Source: Meridianimaribacter flavus
GTDB lineage: Bacteria; Bacteroidota; Bacteroidia; Flavobacteriales; Flavobacteriaceae
NCBI RefSeq assembly: GCF_004366715.1
Contig: NZ_SOQZ01000003.1
Span: forward strand, 129,001 to 193,000
Direction: 5' to 3'
Length of the DNA stretch: 64,000 bases
Below are positions 37,621 through 44,635 of this stretch, piece after piece. A model generated the notes under the pieces. The model was given only the letters and a program-made list of their open reading frames with translations. It ran no database searches and was not told where the DNA came from. Each line of letters begins with the position of its first letter. The stretch's first letter is position 1. The position numbers were made by a program, and so were the translations under genes.

Positions 37621-38211
37621 TTGATTACTAAACCTCAGCTTAGAATAAAACGATGTTTTGACTTTCTTTTAAGCATCCTGATTTTCCCTTTTTTGATTGT
37701 GCCTATTTTGGTCTTGATTTTAATATCTAGTATAGATACTCAGCAATGGGGCGTGTTTTCTCAAAAACGTGTTGGTCAAAACGGTAAGCTTTTTAAAATA
37801 TATAAAATTAGGACTTTAAAGAAAGAGCCTCATTACTTAGGGCGTTTGCATCAAAGTGCTACAACGTTTGGTGGCTTTTTACGAAACAGTAAGTTAGATG
37901 AGTTGCCGCAGCTGTTTAATGTGCTCTTTGGTCATATGAGTTTTGTGGGGCCGCGACCAGATGTTCAAGGATTTGCTGATGAGTTAATAGGAGAGGATAG
38001 AGTTATTTTAAAAGTTAAACCAGGTATTACAGGACCCGCTACAATAAAGTATAAAGATGAAGATGTGCTTTTGGCAATGCAGTCTGACCCAGAAACTTAC
38101 AATAGAACGATTATTTGGGTAGATAAGGTTGAAATCAATAAAAAATACGTGCAGAATTGGAGTTTTTCTTTAGATTTGAGATATATTTTACAATCAATAA
38201 AACTTAAATGA
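37621..38211 (+). CDS. Phosphoglycosyl transferase (initiating sugar transferase, PglC-like)
   Basis: 196 residues of the short monotopic PGT family. It starts the glycan by moving a sugar-1-phosphate to undecaprenyl phosphate. Motifs are KRCFDFLLS, QKRVGQNGKLFKIYKIRTL and SKLDELPQLFNVLFGHMSFVGPRPD. No ATG in frame precedes the conserved KRCFD, so the start is taken as TTG at 37621, one base after the Wzc stop. The next gene overlaps by 4 nt. Confidence 0.9.
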   Translation: MITKPQLRIKRCFDFLLSILIFPFLIVPILVLILISSIDTQQWGVFSQKRVGQNGKLFKIYKIRTLKKEPHYLGRLHQSATTFGGFLRNSKLDELPQLFNVLFGHMSFVGPRPDVQGFADELIGEDRVILKVKPGITGPATIKYKDEDVLLAMQSDPETYNRTIIWVDKVEINKKYVQNWSFSLDLRYILQSIKLK

Positions 38212-39503
38212 TGCCCAAAACAGATAGAATAACCATTATAGGACTTGGTTATGTAGGTTTACCATTAGCAGTTGAATTTGCTAAGCAATATCATGTTGTA
38301 GGTTTTGATATTAATGCTGCTAGAATTGCTGAACTAAAAGAAGGGAACGATCAAACCTTAGAAGTAGAAACGGATGAATTAAAAGCGGTACTTACTTATG
38401 ATGAGCATGCTGAAAAAGGATTGTTTGTAACATCTGATAAGGATATGATTGCAGGGTCTAACATTTATATTGTTACTGTGCCAACACCTACTGATGCTTT
38501 AAACAAGCCTATATTCACACCTTTGGTTAAAGCCAGCGAAACTGTTGGCGCTGTACTAAAGCAAGACGATATTGTAATTTATGAATCTACTGTATATCCA
38601 GGTGTGACTGAAGATATTTGCGTGCCTATACTAGAGCGTGAATCAGGGCTAGTGTTTAATACAAGTTTTTTTGCTGGATATTCTCCAGAGCGAATTAACC
38701 CAGGGGATAAAACTCATACAGTAACTAAAATATTAAAAGTGACTTCAGGGTCTACTCCTGAAATCGCTAAGCGAGTAGATGATTTGTATAAGTCTATTAT
38801 TACTGCAGGAACACATTTGGCGCCTTCTATTAAGGTGGCAGAAGCAGCAAAAGTGATTGAAAACTCCCAAAGAGATATTAATATCGCCTTTGTGAATGAA
38901 CTCTCAAAAATATTCAGACTCTTAGATATTGACACGCAAGCAGTGTTGGAGGCTGCAGGAACCAAATGGAACTTTTTAAAATTCACTCCAGGTTTGGTTG
39001 GAGGTCATTGTATAGGTGTTGACCCTTATTATTTGGCGCAAAAAGCTATTGAGAGTGGTTACACTCCTGAGATTATATTGGCAGGACGAAAAATGAATGA
39101 CAGCATGGGTAGCTATGTGGCTTCAGAAACAGTGAAGATGATGATTAAAAAAGGAGCAACCATTAAGGGGTCTAGAGCTTTGGTGTTAGGTATTACCTTT
39201 AAAGAGAATTGTCCTGATATTAGAAACTCACGTGTTATTGATATTATACGAGAGTTTCAATCGTATCAAGTTGATGTAGATGTGTATGATCCTTGGGCAT
39301 CCAAAAGTGAAGTAAAGCATGAATATGGATTAGATTTGTTGTGTTCTGAAGCTGAACTGTCTGATGCTTATGAGGCGATTATATTAGCAGTGTCTCATAA
39401 TTCATTTTTAAGTTTGGATATTAGTCAATTGAAATCAGATATTGGGGTTGTGTTTGATGTAAAGTCCTTGTTGCCTAAGGTATTAGTTGATGCGAGGTTG
39501 TAA
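38208..39503 (+). CDS. UDP-N-acetylhexosamine C6-dehydrogenase (TviB/WbpO-like)
   Basis: 431 residues. N-terminal NAD Rossmann fold (IIGLGYVGLPLAVEF), the central domain, and the catalytic Cys268 in GGHCIGVDPYYLA. Such enzymes oxidise UDP-GlcNAc or UDP-GalNAc to the uronic acid in two steps. Together with the next gene (WbpP/TviC-like 4-epimerase) it probably produces UDP-GalNAcA. The stop codon is followed without spacer by a GTGANNN heptamer array. Confidence 0.93.
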   Translation: MMPKTDRITIIGLGYVGLPLAVEFAKQYHVVGFDINAARIAELKEGNDQTLEVETDELKAVLTYDEHAEKGLFVTSDKDMIAGSNIYIVTVPTPTDALNKPIFTPLVKASETVGAVLKQDDIVIYESTVYPGVTEDICVPILERESGLVFNTSFFAGYSPERINPGDKTHTVTKILKVTSGSTPEIAKRVDDLYKSIITAGTHLAPSIKVAEAAKVIENSQRDINIAFVNELSKIFRLLDIDTQAVLEAAGTKWNFLKFTPGLVGGHCIGVDPYYLAQKAIESGYTPEIILAGRKMNDSMGSYVASETVKMMIKKGATIKGSRALVLGITFKENCPDIRNSRVIDIIREFQSYQVDVDVYDPWASKSEVKHEYGLDLLCSEAELSDAYEAIILAVSHNSFLSLDISQLKSDIGVVFDVKSLLPKVLVDARL

Positions 39504-39566
39504 GTGAGGAATGAGACGTGAGAAGTGAGACGTGAGGAGTGAATAGTGAGTAGTGAGGAGTGGAAA
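39504..39566 (+). repeat. GTGANNN heptamer array 1 (nine units)
   Basis: Nine seven-base units in unbroken phase begin at the first base after the dehydrogenase TAA. Seven are GTGA plus one of GGA, GAA, GAC, ATA or GTA. ATGAGAC and GTGGAAA are near-variants. The array runs into a short TCGA-type motif (39577-39597), also intergenic. Confidence 0.85.
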
Positions 39567-41765: not shown

Positions 41766-42611
41766 ATGGCTTTAGAAACAAGAGTTTATCAAAAAGAACG
41801 TACTATAAAATTTGGTGCTTTACTTAAAGCGAGTTTGGGAGATATGTTGCGCTCGCGTTTTTTAGCGAGACAATTGGCAGAACGTGACATTAAAGCCCAG
41901 TACCGACAATCTTACCTTGGAATTATTTGGGCTTTTGTAATGCCTATAGGTACTGCTTTGGTATGGATTTTTTTAAACAATAGTGGTACTGTTCGCTTGT
42001 CGGATACAGGTGTGCCTTATCCTGTGTATGCCTTTTCAGGTACATTGATATGGTCTATTATGGTGGCAGCAATTAATTCGCCAATGCAAAATACAAATGC
42101 TGCAAAAGGAATACTTACCAAGATTAACTTCCCTAAAGAAGCCTTGTTGCTTTCAGGGGTTTATAAACTGTTGTTTGATAGCTTTATTAAGCTTTTGCTT
42201 TTAGTGTTTTTTGTGTTTGCCTTTGGGGTTGGGTTTCATTGGAGCTTACTGCTAGTGCCTTTTGCTATTTTGGCAGCTGTTCTTTTTGGGACTACCGTAG
42301 GGTTGTTTTTAACGCCTTTGGGGCTACTGTATAAAGATATTGGTAAGATTATTACGTTTGGTATGCAGTTTTTAATGTATGCTACTCCTGTAGTGTATGC
42401 TATTCCTGATGCTGGACTTATGAGAACGGTTATGATGTATAATCCTATAACGCCTATTATTTTAACCACGCGCGATTTGGTAGTTGGGTTTTCGCCAGAG
42501 TTTTTAAGCTACTTTATAGTGGTTATTGCTGCTTGTGTGCCTTTATTGTTTTTGGGGTTGGTGATGTATCGTATTGCGATTCCAATTATTGTGGAGCGGT
42601 TGAGTGCGTAG
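41766..42611 (+). CDS. wzm: ABC-2 type polysaccharide export permease (Wzm-like)
   Basis: 281 residues with six membrane helices and the N-terminal family segment RFLARQLAERDIKAQYRQSYLGIIWAFVMP. It forms the inner-membrane channel that exports a lipid-linked glycan with the Wzt ATPase. The wzt-like gene is usually the next gene, but here a heptamer array, a four-helix-bundle gene and a second array lie between. Its TAG overlaps the first unit of array 2 at 42611. Confidence 0.93.
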   Translation: MALETRVYQKERTIKFGALLKASLGDMLRSRFLARQLAERDIKAQYRQSYLGIIWAFVMPIGTALVWIFLNNSGTVRLSDTGVPYPVYAFSGTLIWSIMVAAINSPMQNTNAAKGILTKINFPKEALLLSGVYKLLFDSFIKLLLLVFFVFAFGVGFHWSLLLVPFAILAAVLFGTTVGLFLTPLGLLYKDIGKIITFGMQFLMYATPVVYAIPDAGLMRTVMMYNPITPIILTTRDLVVGFSPEFLSYFIVVIAACVPLLFLGLVMYRIAIPIIVERLSA

Positions 42612-42757
42612 GGAGACGTGAGGAGTGAGTAGTGAGGAGTGAGACGTGAGTAGTGAAAAGTGAGTAGTGAAAAGTGAGTAGTGAGACGTGAGGAGTGAGA
42701 CGTGAAAAGTGAGATGTGAGGAGTGAGAAGTGAGACGTGAAAAGTGAGTAGTGAAAC
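42611..42757 (+). repeat. GTGANNN heptamer array 2 (21 units)
   Basis: 147 nt: 21 units of exactly seven bases without a phase break. Twenty are GTGA followed by GGA, GTA, GAC, AAA, GAA, GAT or AAC; the first (42611-42617) is GGGAGAC. The first base is the last base of the Wzm stop codon. On the plus strand every frame meets a TGA within 21 nt; on the minus strand no frame has a stop. Confidence 0.93.
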
Positions 42758-42824
42758 GACTATCCGATTCACGATTCACGACTATGCGATTTTCGATTCA
42801 CGATTATGCGATTCACGATAAAAT
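42758..42824 (+). repeat. GATTCAC / GACTATCC array (type B), left copy
   Basis: Directly continues array 2. Units GACTATCC or GACTATGC (8 nt) alternate with GATTCAC (7 nt), ending in GATAAAAT. GATTCAC is the reverse complement of GTGAATC, so the block is an inverted relative of the GTGANNN array. It ends 18 nt before the four-helix-bundle start codon. Confidence 0.85.
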
Positions 42825-42842
42825 ATTAAAGAAAATAAAGAT

Positions 42843-43193
42843 ATGAATCATAAGGATTTAGATGTGTGGAAGAAAAGCATGGACCTAGTGGTTGAGGTTT
42901 ATGACTGGACGACATTGTTTCCTGATGAAGAAAAATATGGTTTGATTTCGCAAATGCGTAGAGCTGCTGTTTCTATTCCTTCCAATATTGCTGAAGGGAG
43001 TGCTAGAAAAAGCGATAAGGAGTTGTTGCAATTTATAAATATTGCTTTAGGTTCTGTTGCTGAATTGGAAACACAGTATTTAATTGTATTGCGTTTGAAG
43101 TTTTCAGAGCCTAATACTATTTTAAATGATTTGTTGATTGATGTGAAACAACTATTGTTGGGATATAGGAATTATGTGAGGAGGAAGACGTGA
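42843..43193 (+). CDS. Four-helix-bundle protein (23S rRNA IVP / Avd-like)
   Basis: 116 residues of the TIGR02436/PF05635-type family: LDVWKKSMDLVVEVYDWTTLFP, then YGLISQMRRAAVSIPSNIAEGSARKSDKE and ALGSVAELETQYLIVLRL. Known relatives are proteins encoded in intervening sequences of 23S rRNA genes and the Avd accessory protein of diversity-generating retroelements; most members have no known role. Here no rRNA gene or reverse transcriptase is present. It is bracketed by repeat blocks in the same orientation. Its TGA stop is part of a GTGAGGA unit, and heptamer-like bases reach back into the last codons (43176-43189). Confidence 0.92.
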   Translation: MNHKDLDVWKKSMDLVVEVYDWTTLFPDEEKYGLISQMRRAAVSIPSNIAEGSARKSDKELLQFINIALGSVAELETQYLIVLRLKFSEPNTILNDLLIDVKQLLLGYRNYVRRKT

Positions 43194-43316
43194 GGAGTGA
43201 GTGGTGAGTAGTGAGACGTGAAAAGTGAGTAGTGAGACGTGAAAAGTGAGTAGTGAGACGTGAAAAGTGAGTAGTGAGACGTGGAGGCGTGAAAAGTGAG
43301 TAGTGAGTAGTGAAAC
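43176..43316 (+). repeat. GTGANNN heptamer array 3
   Basis: Units start inside the end of the four-helix-bundle gene (GTGAGGA 43176-43182, degenerate GGAAGAC 43183-43189) and continue to GTGAAAC at 43310-43316. All are 7 nt except an 8-nt GTGGAGGC at 43281-43288. From 43204 the order GTGAGTA, GTGAGAC, GTGAAAA repeats as a 21-nt higher-order unit three times, then partly. Confidence 0.93.
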
Positions 43317-43381
43317 GACTATCCGATTCACGATTCACGACTATCCGATTCACGACTATCCGATTCACGACTAAACGATTT
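43317..43381 (+). repeat. GATTCAC / GACTATCC array (type B), right copy
   Basis: Same organisation as 42758-42824: GACTATCC, two GATTCAC, then alternating units, ending with GACTAAAC and GATTTT. It ends 15 nt before the Wzt start codon. Confidence 0.85.
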
Positions 43382-43396
43382 TAAATTAAATAACTA

Positions 43397-44635
43397 ATGA
43401 GTAACATACAACATAATAACGAGGTTCTTGTTAAGGTTGAGGGTTTGAGCAAAAAGTTTTGCAAGGACCTAAAGACGAGCTTGTGGTATGGTGTTAAGGA
43501 CTTGTTGAGTGGGATACGAGGATCGCAAGAGGAGAGCCAATTGCGAGCTAAGGAGTTTTGGGCGGTTAAGGATATTAATTTTGAGTTGCGACGCGGAGAG
43601 TGTTTGGGCTTAATTGGGCATAATGGAGCTGGTAAAAGTACGTTGCTAAAGATATTGAATGGGCTTATTAACCCTGATGCTGGTAAAGTTACCATAAGAG
43701 GGCGCGTGGGCGCATTGATTGAGTTGGGTGCAGGGTTTAACCCTATACTTACTGGGCGTGAAAACATTTATAACAATGGTGCTGTTTTAGGGTTTAGCCG
43801 AAAAGAGATTGACAGCAAGTTGGAGGCTATTATTGCTTTTGCAGAGCTTGATGAGTTTATAGATATGCCAGTGCAGCATTACAGTAGTGGGATGAAAGTG
43901 CGCTTGGGCTTTGCAGTAGCAGCCCAAATGGAACCTGATGTATTGATTATTGATGAGGTATTGGCTGTGGGTGATGTTGGGTTTAGAATGAAATGTTTAA
44001 CTAGAATTGGAGAATTGCTAAAAACTACTGCTGTGATTTTTGTATCCCATACTATGCCTCAAGTTGCAAGAATAGCTAATAAAATTATTCTACTGAAGCA
44101 TGGTGAATCAATAGAAAATAGTGTTAATGTTTCTAGTGGGATTGAAAAGTATTATAATGAGTTTCAAAATACTGACAAAATCATTGGCGGAAATGGTTTG
44201 ATTAAGCTAAAAGAATTCAACATTTATAAAGATAATAGAGCGCTAAATAATAATGAAAAGTTTGTTAGCCTTGAATTTAATAAGTCATATGTTTTAAGAT
44301 TAAAACTTAATGTGAGTCATGAAACTAGGGATTACTTTGTTAATTTCTCATTTATTGATAAAGACGCTAAGCAAGTTGCTAATTTTTATTCGGTTATTTC
44401 AAATAATATATTTAATGAAAAAGGAATAGTTGATATTACAGCTAAAATAGATAATCTAATATTGGGACAAGGAACTTATACTATTGGAGTTGCAATAAAT
44501 GAGATTAAGACAAATGGGGCAAGAGGTGATATCTATTATTATGATTCTAATATAAAGTCAATTAATGTAGTAGGAGTGCCGACAGGGCATTCACCAATAC
44601 AATTTTATGGAGATTGGGATTTAAATAAAATATGA
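43397..44635 (+). CDS. wzt: Polysaccharide export ABC ATPase with C-terminal glycan domain (Wzt-like)
   Basis: 412 residues. The ABC domain has Walker A GHNGAGKST, the signature YSSGMKVRLGFAVAAQ and Walker B VLIIDEVLAVGD. The C-terminal third (about 270-412) is a beta-sandwich of the Wzt_C type that recognises the completed glycan. It pairs with the Wzm permease 785 nt upstream. The stop overlaps the next start by 4 nt (ATGA). Confidence 0.93.
   Translation: MSNIQHNNEVLVKVEGLSKKFCKDLKTSLWYGVKDLLSGIRGSQEESQLRAKEFWAVKDINFELRRGECLGLIGHNGAGKSTLLKILNGLINPDAGKVTIRGRVGALIELGAGFNPILTGRENIYNNGAVLGFSRKEIDSKLEAIIAFAELDEFIDMPVQHYSSGMKVRLGFAVAAQMEPDVLIIDEVLAVGDVGFRMKCLTRIGELLKTTAVIFVSHTMPQVARIANKIILLKHGESIENSVNVSSGIEKYYNEFQNTDKIIGGNGLIKLKEFNIYKDNRALNNNEKFVSLEFNKSYVLRLKLNVSHETRDYFVNFSFIDKDAKQVANFYSVISNNIFNEKGIVDITAKIDNLILGQGTYTIGVAINEIKTNGARGDIYYYDSNIKSINVVGVPTGHSPIQFYGDWDLNKI

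Follow-up and report, generated by a model that had tools for sequence, protein, structure and literature searches.

The junction between wzm and wzt was analysed within a stretch of 64,000 nucleotides from Meridianimaribacter flavus, referred to here as the window, in which all features described lie on the forward strand. The gene wzm, encoding an ABC permease (41766–42611), ends in a stop codon (42609–42611) that runs straight into arm A1 (array 2; 42612–42754). The initial annotation had counted 21 heptamers in this array, 20 of them with GTGA, and the count was borne out: 20 GTGANNN units proceed in exact 7-nt steps, with starts from 42618 to 42751, and the remaining unit, at 42611, reads GGGAGAC and is without GTGA. 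Block B1 (42755–42819), composed of CGACTATCC and GATTCAC, separates A1 from a gene for an S23p protein of 116 aa (43193 being its last position, 42843 its first). Its TGA stop codon (43191–43193) forms part of the first unit of arm A2 (array 3; 43190–43313), which holds 13 phased units (43190–43274), an 8-nt slip (43281–43288) and 4 further phased units (43289–43310). The strict phasing originally claimed for both arrays thus applies to A1, while array 3 departs from it by this one slip. Block B2 (43314–43379), with GATTCAC and CGACTATC, follows, and the gene for the ABC ATP-binding protein Wzt (43397–44635) marks the downstream edge of the junction. A third, solo GTGANNN array (39502–39562), with no S23p gene beside it, is located between ugd and an epimerase gene.

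A block of the GATTCAC and CGACTATCC/GC type therefore comes after both arrays, and the direct arrangement of array and block on either side of the gene was described correctly. As GATTCAC is the reverse complement of GTGAATC, the blocks carry the array motif on the opposite strand, and both flanks of the gene consequently carry the motif in both directions. A pattern of three GTGANNN units was matched 35 times in the window against an expectation of 0 (100 shuffles, maximum 0). Genome-wide, arrays of at least four units occur at four places, of which the window holds three, and PF05635 genes number two. No Rfam match with an E-value up to 1 was found between window positions 38000 and 45000, and across 20 related loci Rfam returned one tRNA and nothing else. 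The position between wzm and wzt places the element outside 23S rRNA.

Assignment of the protein to the four-helix-bundle family PF05635 was confirmed at 119.3 bits against a cut-off of 33.8. The predicted structure (pLDDT 97.1) has a four-helix fold, and its closest match is 2gsc of Xanthomonas (TM 0.93). The Avd protein of diversity-generating retroelements has a similar fold, yet the match is weak (4dwl, TM 0.77, Foldseek E 0.11) and the Avd model scored 20.4 bits against a cut-off of 80, so that identity with Avd was rejected.

Heptad flanks of PF05635 genes

In order to place the window copy, flanks of PF05635 genes were compared in three sets of loci. Screening of 149 Flavobacteriaceae genomes yielded 37 with arrays of at least five GTGANNN units; PF05635 genes were present in 36 of these 37, with 179 matches, from which 92, mostly top-scoring, were examined as the first set (31 loci from searches and 60 fetched stretches). 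A second, "named" set comprised the best 80 among the matches listed in a scan by protein similarity alone, and a third consisted of 29 new loci from a search across 198 genomes of the phylum. After removal of 4 of 201 rows with short, N-rich or duplicate flanks the pooled sample was 197 loci, with 274 neighbouring ORFs as controls. Flanks of 120 nt were scored for local inverted complementarity at a threshold of 12.

Near the start and stop codons, loci of the first set showed tandem repeats with a unit of 7 nt, in some cases 8 and rarely 6, often as facing arms. The threshold was reached in 44/92 of these loci against 1/163 neighbouring ORFs, and in 4.3% of cases when arms were paired at random across loci. 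In the pooled sample 108/197 PF05635 loci had inverted flanks at this threshold (89/197 fell below it) against 5/274 neighbouring ORFs, and 80/197 against 2/274 at a threshold of 14. Corresponding values were 50/76 against 4/104 for the named set, drawn from the best 80 among the matches listed, and 14/29 against 0/7 for the phylum set; in Flavobacteriaceae genomes lacking long GTGANNN arrays 10/16 loci reached 12. Direct similarity between flanks at or above 12 was seen in 39/197 loci and 10/274 controls. The automatic scoring skips loci in which a reading frame enters an arm, as at L253, and 108/197 may for that reason be low. High inverted scores were obtained in Bacteroidota, Melainabacteria, Bacillota, Thermodesulfobacteriota, Acidobacteriota and Pseudomonadota, among others.

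The 7-nt period was evident from autocorrelation, which at lag 7 averaged 0.39 and 0.38 in the flanks as compared to 0.306 in controls and was clearly above controls at 7, 14, 21 and 28 nt. A marked period of 7 nt was assigned to 111/394 flanks and one of 8 nt to 26/394 (controls 27/548 and 8/548, respectively). Both neighbours were co-directional with the gene in 162 of the 181 PF05635 loci with two called neighbours, and in 67/93 other ORFs. The commonest form was a gene between facing arms, GTGANNN being one among many units. With an inverted-flank score of 8.5 and an A-B block on either side, the window copy is an untypical member of the heptad-armed S23p genes; among its kin, G108 has arrays in one direction only and G113 an arm on one side only. 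PF05635 genes had four or more phased GTGANNN units no further than 300 nt away, on whichever strand, in 29/197 loci as opposed to 1/157 control ORFs (Fisher p 3e-7), where 92 of the 197 loci came from genomes chosen for arrays and positives were distributed as 9/92 in the first set, 20/76 in the named set and 0/29 in the phylum set. The link from gene to array put forward in the initial annotation is thus real.

Two further protein families, each represented by 30 loci with 4 unusable, were scored for comparison. ParE (PF05016) reached the threshold in 1/26 inverted and 0/26 direct comparisons. GIY-YIG genes (PF01541) reached it in 11/26 and 12/26, respectively, with no 7-nt signal (lag 7 = 0.272). 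Inverted flanks are accordingly not specific to S23p genes, while neither control showed heptad arms. Inverted non-heptad flanks were seen around Flavobacteriaceae GIY-YIG genes at L353, L358, L359, L362, L365 and L367, possibly a second kind of element.

The order of units within the arms was evaluated by shuffling the downstream flank in blocks of 7 nt and comparing complementarity scores. Unit order mattered (p<0.05) in 85/197 PF05635 loci against 5/246 control ORFs, and in 38/68 loci whose only selection criterion was a 7-nt period on both sides. A previous figure of 69/80 at p<0.05 was discarded as biased, the loci having been preselected at a threshold of 14. On these results roughly half of the armed loci have arms that match as reverse complements in the order of their units, beyond what arrays of a single unit would give. 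Own arms fitted each other better than exchanged ones in two manually compiled groups of like sites (p 0.0006 and p 0.037), both drawn from what we take to be a fad operon.

Taken over the whole survey, the flanks point to S23p genes with heptad arms, usually facing, as a family of genetic elements that is widespread and has attracted little notice. No published link between S23p genes and heptad arms was found in the literature searched, from which subscription papers were mostly absent; heptamers in one rRNA IVS are noted in the accessible text of PMC4990558.

Repeat units, protein relatedness and junction occupancy

Phased upstream GTGA pairs were present in 11/14 loci whose protein is at least 60% identical to the window protein (the window itself counted), in 17/43 at 50–60%, in 8/90 at 40–50% and in 0/50 below 40%. 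Among 117 armed loci, arm similarity could be predicted from protein identity for pairs located at different sites (Mantel r 0.22, p 0.0005, the lowest value that the test can return). On a tree of 84 proteins with poor resolution, the GTGA label required 14 changes against 27 when shuffled, with 0/500 shuffles as low. Judging from these sequence comparisons the repeat unit tracks the phylogeny of the protein. Related S23p proteins were located at different sites and phyla were intermixed on the tree. In 11/11 hand-picked pairs dN (0.007–0.13) was below dS (0.06–1.9), by which measure the S23p protein is under purifying selection.

Occupancy of the wzm-wzt junction was compared at the 18 closest Wzt loci, our own counted, out of 56 genomes with a match; the start of the match was substituted in 4 loci where no wzt ATG was found. 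Spacing between the genes was –8 to +2 nt, that is without insert, in 10/18 loci and 45 nt in one. An S23p gene of the window type with A-B material on both sides occupied the junction in 3/18, our own included. The four remaining loci were each different: a distant S23p gene (36% identity to the nearest query) with other arms at L159, GTGA/TCAC arms without a gene at L156, other material at L161, and no wzm within 1.5 kb of wzt at L158. The S23p gene of G108 is also found between wzm and wzt, where GTGA arrays flank both sides and a phased TCAC arm is absent. These empty sites support the gene and its arrays as a cassette. The direct A-B/A-B arrangement of the initial annotation, where the cassette was proposed to be the gene plus one A-B block, proved to be a variant of the window's clade.

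At the ugd-epimerase junction of another genus (G113, L123) there is an S23p gene that has a GTGA array on its upstream side only, and ugd and the epimerase gene overlap as TAATG (stop/start) in L220 of the G108 genome and in L110 of G082. The solo array of the window resembles a gene-less remnant at this same junction. Two S23p lineages were observed about 1.3–1.6 kb apart on single contigs, as L066 and L138 (G037:C14) and as L077 and L144 (G122:C1), presumably at successive junctions of a fad operon.

Gene-less arrays and related repeat systems

The reverse direction, from array to gene, was also considered. Long GTGANNN arrays were found in 8/11 Flavobacteriaceae genomes with the window's S23p clade against 29/138 others (p 0.0007, gene-side arrays counted). 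Thirty array loci were then inspected, one per genome, from the 37 array-bearing genomes, with M. flavus represented by its C2 array. An S23p gene within 1.5 kb was clear in 2, weak in 1 and missing in 27, so the association in this direction is weak and most long GTGANNN arrays are far from S23p genes. What resembles a decayed element was seen at L040, where short GTGA and TCAC arrays enclose a weak S23p match.

Gene-less repeats were abundant in G340, the gammaproteobacterium Dokdonella immobilis, the single PF05635 gene of which (L253) is inside GGGATTC arms, between genes that we take to be accB and accC. Doubled GGGATTC matched this genome 153 + 202 = 355 times (at most 1 mismatch, overlaps and own arms counted) and the reversed doubled pattern 0 + 0 times. 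Among the places listed there were 11 facing pairs 39–173 nt apart, too close for the S23p gene, and an S23p gene was found in 2/30 array loci (about 16 sites), both at the gene itself. In the order to which G340 belongs PF05635 was present in 41/121 genomes, and with a wider window 20/29 scored loci reached 12 compared with 9/246 control ORFs of the earlier loci. Gene-less GGGANTC matches amounted to 11 in 400 kb of 6 genomes whose S23p gene has such arms, to 18 in 360 kb of 9 genomes with other S23p arms, all 18 in one genome, and to 0 in 368 kb of 20 genomes without S23p; since G340 itself gave 0 matches in 80 kb, this sample is too thin for density. Recent transposition is not supported: in pairs sharing 62% identity or more, the best being 71%, no near-identical element was found at two sites.

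In REPIN/RAYT systems one protein gene is flanked by a motif that also occurs elsewhere in the genome as inverted pairs without the gene. G340 is similar in having a gene with motif arms and gene-less facing pairs elsewhere, and differs in that the unit is a 7-nt tandem array instead of one palindrome. To our knowledge S23p is not a known transposase.

Intervening sequences (IVS) of 23S rRNA provide a second comparison. In the accessible part of a report on Coxiella, the IVS has complementary inverted ends and is excised by RNase III, two or three heptamers and a degenerate one lie just upstream of the S23p gene in strain-variable number, the S23p protein is thought by the authors probably not to be made, and the role of rRNA IVS and S23p genes is called unclear (PMC4990558). 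The elements surveyed here share with it, so far as that text goes, an S23p gene, complementary ends (in 108/197 loci) and heptamers before the gene; they differ in lying between protein genes and in that their arms are often long heptad arrays. Two or more 23S motifs were found at 0/201 loci.

Heptamer arrays have also been recorded independently of S23p genes. GGGAATC arrays of Xanthomonas form 70 and 75 facing pairs in two genomes, and the available text of that report contains neither "S23" nor "four helix" (PMC4692102); the same type of unit makes up the arms in 6/29 scored S23p loci of G340's order. TAACTGA heptamers form intergenic arrays in Beggiatoaceae, Cyanobacteria and Bacteroidetes including Flavobacteriaceae, and differ from the arms in being a single fixed unit that, in the main genome studied, is mostly near start codons; "intervening" and "four helix bundle protein" do not occur in the portion of that paper at hand (PMC4679880).

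Interpretation of the armed S23p genes

Our preferred reading, which we rate at about even odds (roughly 0.5), is that the window holds one copy of a widespread IVS-like element composed of an S23p gene and heptad arms, the arms being the ends of the element, recognised by S23p, and the element residing at operon junctions and spreading rarely. The reading builds on the arms themselves, their 7-nt period, facing orientation and partly ordered complementarity, and on the empty sites, the agreement between unit and clade and the purifying selection, all of which have direct support; movement of the element and binding of the arms by S23p we infer. In its commonest form the element would comprise two arms of 7-nt repeats, mutually reverse complementary, around the S23p gene, and in the window's clade an A-B block would often stand on either side of it. 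It would insert between co-directional operon genes much as an IVS does inside rRNA. The ring formed by S23p may recognise the ends in the form of hairpin DNA or RNA, facing pairs and arrays without a gene would be derivatives, and the element would move rarely from one operon junction to another. A wider proposal is held tentatively and with some doubt, namely that S23p elements constitute a mobile superfamily across phyla in which each lineage has its own heptad, that the rRNA IVS is its best-known site, and that many intergenic heptamers, such as Xanthomonas GGGAATC, may be gene-less descendants maintained in trans by a protein other than a transposase.

The arms surround a gene within operons and are partly ordered complements, which would also suit an RNA processing device. 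The arms would then pair in the polycistronic transcript and be cut by RNase III, the S23p frame would be excised or severed and the operon mRNA tuned. RNase III cleavage of an rRNA IVS, described in the consulted part of PMC4990558, is in line with this, as is the composition of the aligned arms (upstream 10% C, downstream 9% G), which would limit self-pairing of either arm. Selection on RNA pairing, however, predicts the opposite of the mismatches counted: G-U (153) was less frequent than A-C (244) and hence not favoured over it, so that such selection was not seen. Predicted folds were unremarkable, with z –1.39 for the whole window element (2/20 shuffles as good) and –1.61 and –1.35 for its flanks. 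RNA pairing as the sole force was rejected on the un-enriched G-U and the unremarkable folds, and the processing device in general is considered unlikely.

Purifying selection on the protein and the filling of like junctions in several genera, partly a reading by eye, would equally be expected if S23p and its arms were old, vertically inherited regulators of their particular operons. This appears improbable given that 10/18 genomes have no insert at wzm-wzt and that in one genome this junction was entered by a distant lineage of S23p, and given that related proteins occupy different sites with phyla mixed on the tree. Slippage might alternatively grow 7-nt intergenic arrays in which S23p genes are simply tolerated. 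Heptamer arrays without a nearby S23p gene agree with such passive growth, as do the arrays on record in other bacteria, to the extent covered by the available texts (PMC4692102, PMC4679880), and the very different arm lengths in relatives at one site: in two Bacteroidales (L239 and L249) with near-identical S23p, the upstream and the downstream arm each diverge strongly between the two in length and in units. Arms that face and are partly ordered complements, a unit that tracks the protein clade across sites, and ParE genes that reach the threshold at 1/26 loci stand against it, and we regard it as very improbable.

For the S23p family, the reading as an IVS-like element with heptad ends has a practical consequence. 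The shared anatomy of a gene, facing heptad arms, an operon junction and a clade-matched unit makes binding of S23p to its own heptad testable, and the link between S23p and its arms could account for some of the unexplained heptamer repeats of bacteria.
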